This document shows, one piece after another, positions 6,033-40,139 of a DNA stretch of 40,139 nt (position 1 is the first letter of the stretch; every line of letters starts with the position of its first letter). The translations under genes were made by a program, and so were the position numbers. Under the pieces are notes generated by a model. The model ran no database searches. It had not been told where the DNA came from and saw nothing but the letters and a program-made list of their open reading frames with translations. The stretch is from Spirochaetota bacterium (GTDB lineage: Bacteria > Spirochaetota > Brevinematia > DTOW01): the NCBI GenBank assembly GCA_025061835.1, contig JANXAC010000014.1, positions 1 to 40,139 on the forward strand. Reading direction: 5' to 3'.

Positions 6033-6225
6033 GGATATGAAATAACTTTCAGTGGTTTGGAGTGTCATTCATTTGATGTAAAGTTGGTAGGAGTATTTTT
6101 TGAAGTCTGTTAGAAAAATACATTTATGTTTACATCTATCAAATTACCTTCTAAAACTTTTCTATTTCAAACTAAGGTTGGTATGATATTTGCAAAACAG
6201 TTATTAGAATTCAAGGAGGTCAGGT

Positions 6226-8811
6226 ATGAACCTTTCAAGGCTAACTGTGAAATCAAGAGAGGCTTTACAGAAAGCAACTGAAATAGCGGATAGAAACGAT
6301 AACCAGGAAGTGAATAATGAACATCTTGTGTCTGCTTTAATAGAGGATAAAGATAATCTCGTTTTCGCGATACTAAAGAATATGGAGGTTAGGATAAATG
6401 AACTATCCAGAGAGATTCAAAACCTTATATCGCAAAAGCCAAAGATACAAGGAGTGAGTAGCACTTACATTGGGAGTGATTTGAAGAAGGCTTTGGATTA
6501 TTCACTAGAAGAAGCAAACAAATTCAAAGACGAGTTCGTATCAACTGAACATCTGATGCTTGGTATCATACGAAGCGCAAACGGACAACTGAAACCTACG
6601 CTAGAAAAGTATGGTATAACATACAATAATTTTATCACACTACTCAAGGAAATAAGAGGTAATAAGAGAGTTACTGATGAAACACCAGAGGGGAAATATA
6701 ACGCTCTCCAGAAATACACAAGAGACTTAACAGAACTTGCTAGGATTGGAAAACTAGACCCTGTGATTGGTAGAGATAGTGAAATAAGAAGGACTATACA
6801 GATCCTTTTAAGGAGGACGAAAAACAATCCTGTCTTGATTGGTGAGGCTGGGGTCGGTAAGACTGCGATAGTTGAAGGTATTGCCAAAAGGATTGTTGAT
6901 AATGATGTCCCAGAAGGTCTCAAAAGTAAGAGAATACTCGCTCTTGACTTAGGTGCTCTAATTGCTGGAACAAAATTTAGAGGAGAGTTTGAAGAAAGAC
7001 TTAAGGCAGTCATAAACGAGATAGTAGAGTCAAATGGGGAAATTATACTCTTTATTGATGAGATACATATGATTGTAGGTGCTGGAGCAGCAGAGGGAGC
7101 TTTGGATGCAGGTAATATGCTCAAACCAGCACTCGCAAGAGGTGAAATAAAAGTAATCGGTGCTACCACAATAAATGAGTATAGAAAGTATATAGAAAAG
7201 GATAAGGCTTTAGAAAGGAGGTTCCAACCTGTTTTTGTTGCGGAACCTTCAGTTGAGGACACGATAGCAATATTAAGAGGAATAAAGGAGAAATATGAGG
7301 TTCATCACGGTGTCAAGATATCAGACAAAGCCCTAGTATCTGCGGCAGTTCTTTCGCATAGGTATATAACAGATAGATTCCTTCCGGACAAAGCAATTGA
7401 CCTAGTTGATGAATCCGCTTCTAGGATAAGAATGGAAATAGATAGCATGCCACAAGAAATTGATGAACTAAACAGAAGTATTATGAGACTTGAGATAGAA
7501 AAACACGCTCTTGAGAAGGATAACTCACAAGAAGCGAAGGAGAGACTTTCAAAGATTACATTGGAACTTCAAGAATTGCAGAATAAATTAAATATTCTCA
7601 GAGCAAAGTGGCAGAAAGAGAAAGAAATTATATCTAGGATAAAGACACTAAAAGAAGAGATAGATACTCTCACTACTCTAGAGGATAGATACATAAGAGA
7701 AGCAAACTATAACAAAGTTGCAGAGTTAAGGTATGGTCTTAAGCCACAGAAACAGAAAGAGATTGATGAACTCACAAGTAAGTTAAAAGATCTCCAAAAG
7801 GATGGCTCTCTATTACGCGAAGAAGTTACAGAAGAGGATGTCGCTAGAATTGTCTCTGAATGGACTGGTGTTCCTGTTAAAAGGATGCTTGAGAGTGAAA
7901 GGGAAAGGCTTGTAAGAATGGAAGAAGAAATAAAGAAAAGAGTTGTTGGACAAGACCATGCGGTTGAGGCAGTATCCAACACTATAAGAAGAGCAAGGGC
8001 AGGCATTCAGGACGAAAACAGACCTCTTGGTTCTTTTCTTTTTCTAGGACCTACAGGTGTCGGTAAGACAGAGCTTGCAAAAACACTCGCTTGGTTTCTG
8101 TTTGACACAGAAAAGGCGATGATAAGAATTGATATGTCAGAGTATATGGAGAAGCATTCTGTTGCTAGGCTTATAGGAGCACCTCCAGGCTATGTCGGAT
8201 ACGAAGAAGGAGGACAACTCACAGAAGCAGTAAGAAGAAGACCGTATTCTGTAGTACTATTTGATGAGATTGAGAAAGCACATCCGGATGTATTTAATGT
8301 TTTACTACAGATTCTTGATGATGGTAGGCTTACCGATGGTCAAGGTAGAACTGTTGATTTCAAAAATACAATTATCATTATGACATCAAACCTTCTGACA
8401 GAGCTTATCTCTAACATCAACCCAGACCAGATAAACGAGAGTCTCAAGGAGAGAATAGTGAAGGAACTTACAAAATTCTTTAGACCAGAGTTTGTGAACA
8501 GAATTGACGAAATACTTGTGTTCAGAAAACTATCATCGGAACATATAAAGAAGATAATTGATATTCAATTGGATAGAGTAAAAGAGAGGCTTAAAGATAA
8601 GAAAATAATTCTAGAAATTAGCGAGTCTGTGAAGGAATACATTGCGAAGGTAGGATACGATGAAGTATTTGGAGCAAGACCACTCAAAAGGGCTATTCAA
8701 AGGGAACTCCTTGACAAACTTTCACTCCATATTATAAGCGGTAAGATAAAAGAGGGGGACAGAGTAAAGGTAGAGTATGACGGAAGTAACATAGTTTTTA
8801 AAACAAACTAG
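6226..8811 (+). CDS. clpB: ATP-dependent disaggregase ClpB
   Basis: The 861-residue protein is a Hsp100 AAA+ chaperone that threads aggregated proteins through its hexamer, normally with DnaK. The order is an N-terminal Clp repeat domain (1-145), first AAA+ module with Walker A GEAGVGKT (206-213) and Walker B IILFIDEIH, the long coiled-coil middle domain (about 400-530) that distinguishes ClpB from ClpA/ClpC, second AAA+ module with Walker A GPTGVGKT (608-615), and the C-terminal small domain. The length is typical for the family (about 855-880). The start has a strong ribosome binding site (AAGGAGG about 8 bases upstream). The gene is monocistronic, preceded by a long divergent gap that contains a promoter and a foldable RNA. 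Heat regulation is expected for the family, but no recognised heat-shock operator is visible. Confidence 0.97.
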   Translation: MNLSRLTVKSREALQKATEIADRNDNQEVNNEHLVSALIEDKDNLVFAILKNMEVRINELSREIQNLISQKPKIQGVSSTYIGSDLKKALDYSLEEANKFKDEFVSTEHLMLGIIRSANGQLKPTLEKYGITYNNFITLLKEIRGNKRVTDETPEGKYNALQKYTRDLTELARIGKLDPVIGRDSEIRRTIQILLRRTKNNPVLIGEAGVGKTAIVEGIAKRIVDNDVPEGLKSKRILALDLGALIAGTKFRGEFEERLKAVINEIVESNGEIILFIDEIHMIVGAGAAEGALDAGNMLKPALARGEIKVIGATTINEYRKYIEKDKALERRFQPVFVAEPSVEDTIAILRGIKEKYEVHHGVKISDKALVSAAVLSHRYITDRFLPDKAIDLVDESASRIRMEIDSMPQEIDELNRSIMRLEIEKHALEKDNSQEAKERLSKITLELQELQNKLNILRAKWQKEKEIISRIKTLKEEIDTLTTLEDRYIREANYNKVAELRYGLKPQKQKEIDELTSKLKDLQKDGSLLREEVTEEDVARIVSEWTGVPVKRMLESERERLVRMEEEIKKRVVGQDHAVEAVSNTIRRARAGIQDENRPLGSFLFLGPTGVGKTELAKTLAWFLFDTEKAMIRIDMSEYMEKHSVARLIGAPPGYVGYEEGGQLTEAVRRRPYSVVLFDEIEKAHPDVFNVLLQILDDGRLTDGQGRTVDFKNTIIIMTSNLLTELISNINPDQINESLKERIVKELTKFFRPEFVNRIDEILVFRKLSSEHIKKIIDIQLDRVKERLKDKKIILEISESVKEYIAKVGYDEVFGARPLKRAIQRELLDKLSLHIISGKIKEGDRVKVEYDGSNIVFKTN

Positions 8812-37823: not shown

Positions 37824-38939
37824 TTATTTTATATTATATTTCTCTGAAATGGATTTTAAAGTATTGTTTATTTCCTTAGCAATATCAAGCAAGAAATCTC
37901 TCTTTCTTAGTTTTATCTCGTGATTTATTGGTAGCTTCCCATCTGCTATCTCTCTGAGTTCTCTCTTAATTCTATGAACAGGTCCAGCTATCCTATGCGA
38001 GAAGAATAAGCCGAAAGCAGATATAAGTATTATCTGAAGAATACTTAAAGCCAGTATAGGTCTCCAGTAAAGATCCAAAAGATTGTATGCCTTTTTACCA
38101 TAAGTTCGTGTTTCGTAGTATAAGACATCTTTATACTCCCTTACACTACCTATTATACCCTTGATCTTTGAGATACTGGAAGAAATTGAAGAAAGGATTG
38201 AGTCATCAAACATTCCTTGAGAGTATGCTCCTGACAATAATTTCTCAACATCGTTTAGAAAATCTGGAGTTTGCCTTATGAATTCAAATGATCTTAAAAC
38301 TGAGTTTTTAAAATCGCTAAACCTTGATTTGAAATTTTTACTTCTCTCAATGTCATCGCTTGTCACTAGTATAGATGAAATTTTCTCTAAAGATTTCATA
38401 CTTTTATCAAACTCGCACTCCTGTATACCAATTTCAATATCTATTCTATAGCGATTTATTTGGGATTTTAGATCTTCTAGACTGATACCTATTGCTGAAG
38501 GATTGACCTTGTTGTCCTTAATAGATTCGCTAACACGGTAGAAGAAACCATCCTCATAAACTAGACTTACTTCTCTCGTGAGCCACTTCCTTGTCTCAAT
38601 CGCGTTGATTATACTTGCCTCAATATCCTTTAGCGAGTTTATGTATCTGTCAATCTTTCCGATTATCTTGTCAATCTCTTCTTTGTTAGGTAATCCTAAA
38701 CTTTGTATATTATTTTTTATCTTCAGAGCTTCAACCGATAAGTCTGTTGTCTTATAGAAATCCTTTACGAGTTCTTCAAACAATACACCTCTTGAAAATT
38801 TCTGACTGTCTATGTAGAGTATAAAACCTAATGAAAACAGAGCACTTATCAAGACGAGAATAACAAAATTCAATATGAACTTTGTTTGAAAGGGTTTGTC
38901 AACGAAATATCTAAACCTCTTCTTTTTTGCTTGTTTCAT
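37824..38939 (-). CDS. Membrane protein with HAMP domain, no output module
   Basis: The protein (371 residues from the chosen start) has a basic N-terminus (KKKRFRYFVDKPFQTKF), a first membrane helix (about 20-42), a largely helical extracytoplasmic domain of about 245 residues, a second helix (about 290-312) and a HAMP linker (SHRIAGPVHRIKRELREIADGKL). It ends about 40 residues later. The layout is that of a sensor kinase or chemoreceptor cut off after HAMP, so any signal must pass to a partner. The ATG at 38939 follows GGAGG six bases upstream; a TTG 60 bases earlier is rejected. It is divergent from a sigma-54-controlled gene, which makes a functional link possible but unproven. Confidence 0.85.
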   Translation of the reverse strand: MKQAKKKRFRYFVDKPFQTKFILNFVILVLISALFSLGFILYIDSQKFSRGVLFEELVKDFYKTTDLSVEALKIKNNIQSLGLPNKEEIDKIIGKIDRYINSLKDIEASIINAIETRKWLTREVSLVYEDGFFYRVSESIKDNKVNPSAIGISLEDLKSQINRYRIDIEIGIQECEFDKSMKSLEKISSILVTSDDIERSKNFKSRFSDFKNSVLRSFEFIRQTPDFLNDVEKLLSGAYSQGMFDDSILSSISSSISKIKGIIGSVREYKDVLYYETRTYGKKAYNLLDLYWRPILALSILQIILISAFGLFFSHRIAGPVHRIKRELREIADGKLPINHEIKLRKRDFLLDIAKEINNTLKSISEKYNIK

Positions 38940-39066
38940 ACGATACCTCCAACACTTTGATACTTTTATTCTAAAACATATACTCTTGTTATTCAACAAA
39001 TTTTTTACTAAACAATGGGTTTATATTTTGTTGTCTTTATCTTGTGTTTCGGACTATTCTTGTATA

Positions 39067-39108
39067 AGTGTGAATAATATTTACAGATGAGTGTGAATTT
39101 AGTTTACA
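39067..39108. promoter_or_regulatory. Two direct dyad repeats, candidate activator (UAS) sites
   Basis: Positions 39067-39085 and 39090-39108 share AGTGTGAAT-N4-TTTACA, 15 of 19 bases identical, at a period of 23 bases (about two helical turns). Each copy is itself nearly palindromic (TGTGAAT-N3-ATTTACA in the first). They lie about 140-180 bases upstream of the sigma-54 start point, the usual position for tandem sites of an NtrC-family enhancer-binding protein. They could equally serve the divergent HAMP-protein gene. Confidence 0.55.
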
Positions 39109-39222
39109 TTTTTTGTATCATTTTGTAATTTTAAGAAAATCTTGAGGTCTAGGGTTGTTGATATAGTTGGTATTTACTAGTGTTTTTGAATGGTGCTTTT
39201 GTCTCTTATGTAAAGATTGATT

Positions 39223-39239
39223 TGGCACGAATATTGCTT
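39223..39239 (+). promoter_or_regulatory. Sigma-54 (RpoN) promoter
   Basis: TGGCAC (39223-39228) and TTGCTT (39234-39239) match the -24/-12 consensus. The invariant GG (39224-39225) and GC (39236-39237) are exactly 10 bases apart. Transcription should begin near 39249, giving a leader of about 16 bases with TGGAGG as ribosome binding site. A TATAAT-like string overlaps the -12 end at 39239-39244 but has no -35 partner at standard spacing. Confidence 0.85.
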
Positions 39240-39264
39240 TATAATCTTTTACTGGAGGCAGGCC

Positions 39265-40139
39265 ATGGTTTGCGTTAATAGGTGTGTGGTTATAGTCTTT
39301 TTGTTTCTTTTAGTAACTTTTGCTTTTGGTGAGTCTTTCTTTTACTTTGAACCGTTTAGCACTGATCATCCTCCTGGACAGCAACCTGCTGGGTGGTACG
39401 GTCCTGAAGGAACTGGAACTGGAGCAGGATTTTTGTATGGTAGGGATGGGGTTTATAACTTTTCTGAGAGGAATAGTAGCGTAGCTTACAATGGAGCAAA
39501 TGTTATCTTTAGCGGTAACCTCTACACAACTGCGACTTCAGGCTATTTAGGAACATGGGTTGGTTCTGTCATAGCATACACAAATAAACTTTGGACTCCT
39601 ACTCCTTATAGACCATTTGGTTTTGAGATATTAAGAATAGAAGCTAGGATAGATCCTCACAGAGAAGGTCCTACTGGTGTGACAAATCCTGAGTCAAGGA
39701 GAATGGCAGCTTCTATGTCAATATATCTTGCTGAGTATGCTAATATAAATAACTCCTCTCCTGCGGGGACAAAGTTTGCTAATCAAGTAGTCCTATACGA
39801 TATGATGAGAATGCATGATAATCTGTCTAACGATTCACAAACTACACCATACAGCCAGTGGGGCTACTGGTTAAGCTCTTATAGTAGACTTCAGGTTACA
39901 AATGTTTCATCTCTAGATGGTTCAACGCTTAACTTAAAACCAATACTTGAATGGAATATGGATGATGACTGGGTTCACTTAACTAATGAAGGAAGTACTA
40001 TAGGTGGTTATTCTCAATATGCCAATCCTAATTCCACAAACACTAACCGGATGAAGATAATGGTTACACATGATGGTAATGTAGTCCAATTCTTTGTAAA
40101 TCCAGACCCTGCGAATGTTAATGCATATCCTAATGGAAT
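39265..40139 (+). CDS. Secreted protein of unknown function, N-terminal part (runs off the window)
   Basis: The reading frame stays open for 291 codons to the window edge. It begins with a clear signal peptide (about 1-22, with VVIVFLFLLVTFAFG). The mature part is rich in aromatic residues, G, N, S and T and looks like a beta-sandwich: FYFEPFSTDHPPGQ, GWYGPEGTGTGAGFLYGRDG, LGTWVGSVIAYTNKLW, FGFEILRIEARIDP, and a late MKIMVTHDGNVVQFFVNP. That pattern recalls concanavalin/LamG-type surface lectin or glycan-binding domains, but I recognise no catalytic motif. Only one cysteine-containing stretch is seen, in the signal region. TGGAGG precedes the ATG, and transcription is predicted to be sigma-54 dependent. 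The C-terminus, and any anchor or enzyme domain, lies outside the window. Confidence 0.8.
   Translation, partial: MVCVNRCVVIVFLFLLVTFAFGESFFYFEPFSTDHPPGQQPAGWYGPEGTGTGAGFLYGRDGVYNFSERNSSVAYNGANVIFSGNLYTTATSGYLGTWVGSVIAYTNKLWTPTPYRPFGFEILRIEARIDPHREGPTGVTNPESRRMAASMSIYLAEYANINNSSPAGTKFANQVVLYDMMRMHDNLSNDSQTTPYSQWGYWLSSYSRLQVTNVSSLDGSTLNLKPILEWNMDDDWVHLTNEGSTIGGYSQYANPNSTNTNRMKIMVTHDGNVVQFFVNPDPANVNAYPNG

Follow-up and report, generated by a model that had tools for sequence, protein, structure and literature searches.

A consensus sigma-54 promoter with paired upstream dyads before a probable giant surface-protein operon in a Spirochaetota bacterium

Two sigma-54 systems of spirochaetes are among the closest described relatives of the locus analyzed here, namely the Rrp2-RpoN-RpoS cascade of Borrelia burgdorferi and the EbpA-RpoN regulon of Leptospira, in which the control of amtB by sigma-54 has experimental support (review PMC12655853). 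The type IX secretion system (T9SS), to which the export of the proteins encoded here may be compared, has been reported in Bacteroidetes only (surveys, PMC4793230). The window, that is, the whole stretch of DNA that was analyzed, is 40,139 nucleotides long and represents an entire contig, C14 (1-40139), of a 1.8-Mb genome of a Spirochaetota bacterium.

The window contains a single exact match to the sigma-54 consensus, TGGCACGAATATTGCT, at 39223-39238 on the plus strand. GG occupies 39224-39225 and GC 39236-39237, with exactly 10 bases between them, and the site thus has GG at -24 and GC at -12 in the exact spacing. A search for TGGCACN5TTGCW with zero mismatches returned this one site, against an expectation of 0.011 under a first-order Markov model built on the window. 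In the whole genome, TTGGCACN5TTGC occurs twice (~0.23 expected), and the second copy likewise lies 25-26 nt 5' of an ATG with a Shine-Dalgarno sequence. From the sequence, transcription is predicted to start at ~39249; a Shine-Dalgarno GGAGG follows at 39254-39258, 6 nt 5' of the ATG of the downstream gene (gene A) at 39265, which is 26 bases downstream of 39239. An earlier note on this DNA had described near-consensus -24/-12 elements with GG-N10-GC spacing, 26 bases ahead of a well-formed gene start, and this description is correct to the base. By every available sequence test, TGGCACGAATATTGCT is confirmed as a real sigma-54 promoter. Its type is ordinary, a textbook member of the class; it is the controlled target that is new and unstudied.

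The proposal of the earlier note depended on rpoN being present in the genome. A profile search located this gene at C11:10347-10820 (PF04552, E 9.7e-51); it is full length, scoring above the cut-off of TIGR02395, and the RpoN box ARRTVTKYRE is visible in the ORF. The presence of rpoN was also considered as a discriminator among relatives, but was uninformative, as 56 of 60 have the gene. NtrC-family activators, which had been suggested as a further search, are represented by six intact PF00158 genes and a broken one; the activator loop reads GAFTGA in five of the intact genes and GSFTGA in one. The seventh gene (C30:14238-14740, locus L103) is interrupted by stops inside the AAA+ domain, is split over two frames near a contig end and appears to be either a disabled gene or an assembly error.

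Elsewhere in this genome, sigma-54-like sites precede amtB, grpE, clpB, a GAF-domain gene, genes for two sigma-70-family factors and three genes for exported or outer-membrane proteins. All of these sites are intergenic and lie ~25-40 nt 5' of a start codon with a Shine-Dalgarno sequence. The motif followed by a Shine-Dalgarno sequence gave 27 genomic matches against 9 in a reversed control, most of the 27 being located inside genes and representing background. Because amtB, the supported target in Leptospira, carries the motif, it reads as a real regulon here. One of the sites lies in the window itself, which makes the earlier claim that every other promoter there is of the housekeeping type unsafe: TGGTATGATATTTGCA (6179-6194, plus strand) is intergenic, 31 nt 5' of clpB (ATG at 6226), with AAGGAGG downstream, and its two mismatches to the consensus make it a sigma-54-like site with moderate confidence. 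A GrpE-like gene at C4:62530 (L009) has, like clpB, its site ~30 nt 5' of the ATG, and the two sequences suggest sigma-54 control of chaperones. Near-consensus sites also precede the two sigma-70-family factor genes (C1:107727-107742, L004, and C28:17407, L142; 315 aa and at least 261 aa), their sequences being TTGGCACAGTATTTGT and TGGCACGAGTTTTGAT. A response-regulator activator gene (C2:76903-77403) lies directly 5' of the sigma-54 site at C2:78166 (L047), which stands before a gene for a secreted 261-aa protein, and the two genes are likely an activator-target pair. Another site, TGGTATATTTTTTGAA at C24:3924 (L139, minus strand), is followed by a Shine-Dalgarno sequence and an ATG and precedes a gene for a secreted protein of at least 497 aa.

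Gene A begins with a hydrophobic, signal-peptide-like N-terminal segment, which is followed by a beta-rich domain. Since the window is the whole contig, the gene is cut by the contig end after 291 codons (39265-40137, plus strand). The earlier note had predicted a large, uncharacterized secreted protein; secretion and lack of characterization stand, while with regard to size the window itself gives only an N-terminal fragment of 291 residues. The prediction was nevertheless understated, as the gene codes for a giant protein of an operon that is conserved in little-studied spirochaetes. Homologs in relatives are open frames of ~2,450-2,735 aa that have the same N-terminal domain, with an outlier of 4,187 aa in G019. 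In the Brevinematales-type families f1, f2, f3 and f4, as well as in f20, gene A is followed in tandem by gene B, a few nt apart. The right end of another contig of this genome, C15, carries gene B from residue ~245 on and, 13 nt later, a PorV-family gene. This gene B is 63% identical over 1,126 aa to gene B of relative G002, and G001 has gene B in full (2,546 aa), the PorV downstream of it being 77% identical to the one in this genome. We considered the C15 frame as a direct continuation of the window gene and rejected it, as the start of its product aligns with window-protein residues 249-283; the identity to gene B of G002 rules it out as well. Given the C15 gene B and the tandem layout in relatives, we identify the window gene as gene A and infer that C14 and C15 flank a gap of ~7.7 kb in the gene A/B operon. 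A second giant tandem pair is located at C3:45816-56000 (L102:1817-12001) and consists of a 2,208-aa protein with a FlgD_ig end, followed by one of more than 1,185 aa.

The N-terminal domain of gene A had no match in Pfam, NCBIfam or PDB sequences. A scan of genome contigs with the single gene A protein gave no matches, and a contig search with a gene A alignment identified seven relatives; the relatives are bins from metagenomes, and their labels are Spirochaetes or Brevinematales except in two bins. A first structure model, built from 7 sequences, was too poor for use. The model from 21 sequences is beta-rich (pLDDT 67.6), and its top Foldseek match is a legume lectin with a weak E of 0.015, which is only a hint that the modeled domain might be a carbohydrate-binding jelly roll. 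The giants are probably long surface or adhesive proteins.

With respect to their export, a FlgD_ig domain (PF13860) is present at the C-terminal end of gene B here (Pfam) and of gene A in G002. An NCBIfam scan of gene B matched FlgD models only and yielded no C-terminal sorting domain of the TIGR04131/TIGR04183 type. The PorV-like gene matches the NF033709 PorV/PorQ family with E 2.5e-9 and 37.2 bits (cut-off 90), and PorV-like genes adjoin giant genes in the same genus and in families f4 and f20. A SprA/Sov-like ORF of 1,894 aa was also observed (C12:27473-33157; L148:974-6658, minus strand); it matches TIGR04189 with E 3.8e-11 and 40.9 bits, far below the cut-off of 200. Frames of this kind, ~1,900-2,000 aa long and with collinear weak matches, recur in 9 of the 11 genomes tested. 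A search with PF14349 gave no match, its positive control being likewise silent. T9SS-like export is our working hypothesis, because all T9SS-type matches fall short of the curated cut-offs and reports place T9SS in Bacteroidetes alone. We regard it as an evenly balanced question whether a type-IX-like route exists outside Bacteroidota, in Brevinematales and scattered spirochaete relatives, with tandem FlgD-Ig-ended giants as its main cargo and their operon switched by sigma-54 in several families through a two-dyad enhancer common to two giant loci. It is possible, with a lower probability, that the FlgD-Ig domains and the PorV-like protein do not form a secretion pathway, and that the giants are periplasmic or leave by another route. 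The SprA and PorV matches below curated cut-offs and the surveys placing T9SS in Bacteroidetes only (PMC4793230) would agree with this, whereas the location of PorV-like genes beside the giants in three groups and the recurrence of SprA-like frames in most genomes tested argue for the T9SS-like route.

The promoter is conserved among relatives. When the 330 bp ahead of each of 22 distant loci (gene A, gene B or related) were scanned at a threshold of 11.6 or more, a -24/-12 site was detected in 11 of them, against 0.8 expected from shuffles; the scoring matrix was of our own making and the species, being related, do not count independently, so that the family count is the safer number, and the matches span six families (f1, f4, f7, f13, f26 and f28). 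The leaders surrounding the conserved sites differ between loci, and the distance from site to ATG is ~40-55 nt in f1 and ~206-225 nt in f4; because of this difference, retention of the leader as a whole does not account for the site. No promoter was found upstream of the giant genes in f2, f3, f20 and f43, with rpoN present where tested. As these families keep the genes without the promoter, sigma-54 control is not essential to giant genes. The long leader in f4 (L092, L093, L094 and L096) is ~190 nt and has a conserved long-range stem of 13-16 bp, TTGAAAAGTCCTTC / GAAGGACTTTTCA; it had no match in Rfam and is possibly a regulatory RNA.

NtrC-type enhancers are usually pairs of dyads spaced by 19-23 bp and located 80-200 bp upstream. 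An alignment of the upstream regions in f1 revealed two 17-bp dyads of the form TGTGAAN5TTYACA, ~130-155 bp upstream. In the window these are TGTGAATAATATTTACA at 39069-39085, proposed as one half of an enhancer for an NtrC-type activator, and TGTGAATTTAGTTTACA at 39092-39108, 23 bp after the first. No other pair with this spacing and up to 3 mismatches is present in the genome, and the pair is conserved in genus and family: G004 has TGTGCAAATTTTGCACA and TGTGAAAATTTTGCACA with nearly equal spacing (22 bp), and G003 has a partial second dyad. In family f4, pairs of the TGTGTAATTATTACACG type lie at ~-100 and -81, with a spacing of 19 bp. The giant locus on C3 has the pair TGTGAAATTTTTTCAAA / TGTAAATATTTTTTACA at -136, 22 bp apart, followed by a -24/-12-like site, TGGTATGTAATTTGAA, and its giant pair thus stands behind the same two elements as gene A. 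The pair score was reached by 0 of 300 shuffles in the f1, f4 and C3 cases, of which f4 and C3 are the better evidence, the motif having been chosen after viewing some of the scored sequences. Dyad pairs accompany the promoter in families f1, f4 and f13 and were not found at the promoterless gene loci of f2, f3, f20 and f43. The pair at 39069-39108 looks like the arrangement that would let an NtrC-type activator act from afar, and the previously proposed control through an enhancer-binding protein gains support from these tandem dyads conserved with the promoter.

It is unlikely that the dyads instead serve an ordinary repressor or a CRP/FNR-type regulator as operator, with no sigma-54 enhancer involved. 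TGTGA...TCACA does resemble CRP-type half-sites, and single perfect copies exist; however, both the spacing of the pair and its distance are those usual for NtrC-type enhancers, and pairs occur only alongside -24/-12 sites, as seen for three families and for the giant locus on C3. With regard to the candidate activator that would bind the dyads, no activator gene adjoins gene A in the relatives' loci that were read. A gene for a membrane protein (37827-38942, minus strand) is divergent from gene A, with the promoter and dyads in the intergenic stretch between them; its product matched no Pfam family. A divergent homolog is also present in G005 and G008 and was not found beside gene A in other relatives, and the gene was therefore rejected as a conserved divergent regulator serving as a sensor.

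The sigma-54 site overlaps a pair of sigma-70-like hexamers, TTGATT-N17-TATAAT (39217-39245, plus strand), which was absent from the earlier account. It has 10 of 12 matches, a score reached by only 0.8% of random window positions. The pair at the same place in G004 also has 10/12, and other relatives have 7-9/12, which is near background. This species may use the hexamers as an additional promoter for basal transcription; they leave the conservation of the -24/-12 site unexplained. If both promoters worked, a basal sigma-70 start would overlap the inducible sigma-54 start, and RpoN holoenzyme lacking its activator would repress the basal one. Two good motifs in exact overlap, here and in G004, are consistent with such an arrangement, but the hexamer pair is not retained in G001 or G003, which belong to the same genus, or in family f4, and we consider it improbable. 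That the housekeeping promoter alone drives gene A and the -24/-12 match arose by chance is very unlikely in spite of the hexamer matches here and in G004 and the ideal 17-nt spacer, as GG-N10-G is retained in the relatives in which the hexamers are not, and a chance exact 16-mer together with a chance paired upstream dyad would hardly be expected.

Thus, we consider it highly probable that the sigma-54 promoter at 39223-39238, together with a dyad-bound activator, switches on an operon of giant surface proteins exported by a T9SS-like route. RpoN-RNA polymerase would wait at the promoter as a closed complex, and a hexameric NtrC-family activator bound to the dyads at 39069-39108 would open it through looped DNA and ATP hydrolysis, with a start near 39249. 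For these steps, the promoter motif, the dyads, rpoN and the activators are supported by sequence, and promoter activity and activator binding are predicted. The transcript would cover gene A (~2,500 aa), its paralog gene B (~2,550 aa) and the gene for the PorV-like outer-membrane protein. The giants would be exported by Sec and then cross the outer membrane by the T9SS-like route, with the FlgD-Ig C-terminal domain as a sorting signal, PorV as a shuttle and the SprA-like protein as a translocon. Here, the tandem layout in relatives, the C-terminal domains and PorV are the parts read from sequence, and the joining of C14 to C15, the export route and an adhesive role are proposed.

Since a sigma-54 promoter stays silent unless an activator is present, these costly giants are evidently made only on a signal. 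The giant spirochaete proteins, an orphan family, would in this way be tied to a defined switch, with one activator, one enhancer motif and two giant loci. If the export route is true, a T9SS-like pathway extends to Spirochaetota, where surveys reported none. The interest lies in the target, a conserved giant-protein operon that has no described function, and in an enhancer common to two such loci.

In comparison with known systems, the giants resemble T9SS cargo that carries a C-terminal domain (CTD) in their size and predicted export, in the Ig-like domain at their C-terminus, in having a PorV-family neighbor and in the presence of a large SprA-like outer-membrane protein in the genome. They differ in that the C-terminal domain is FlgD_ig and does not correspond to the Bacteroidota CTD models, and in that the PorV and SprA matches are sub-threshold. 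As in the Borrelia cascade, sigma-54-type sites precede genes for sigma-70-family factors (C1:107742 and C28); here, however, the two factors are assigned to the sigma-70 family at large, and the host is a deep-branching environmental spirochaete. The Leptospira EbpA-RpoN regulon, with amtB and lipoprotein genes (PMC12655853), is similar in comprising few genes, among them amtB and genes for envelope proteins, whereas this genome has more activators, six of them intact, and the motif before heat-shock genes, two sigma factors and the giants. No known relative of the giant surface-protein operon was found to be regulated by sigma-54. With the GG/GC N10 spacing, rpoN, GAFTGA-containing AAA+ activators and paired upstream dyads, the locus is like other sigma-54/NtrC-family promoters with tandem upstream activating sites, and differs from them in its target, an operon of giant surface proteins.
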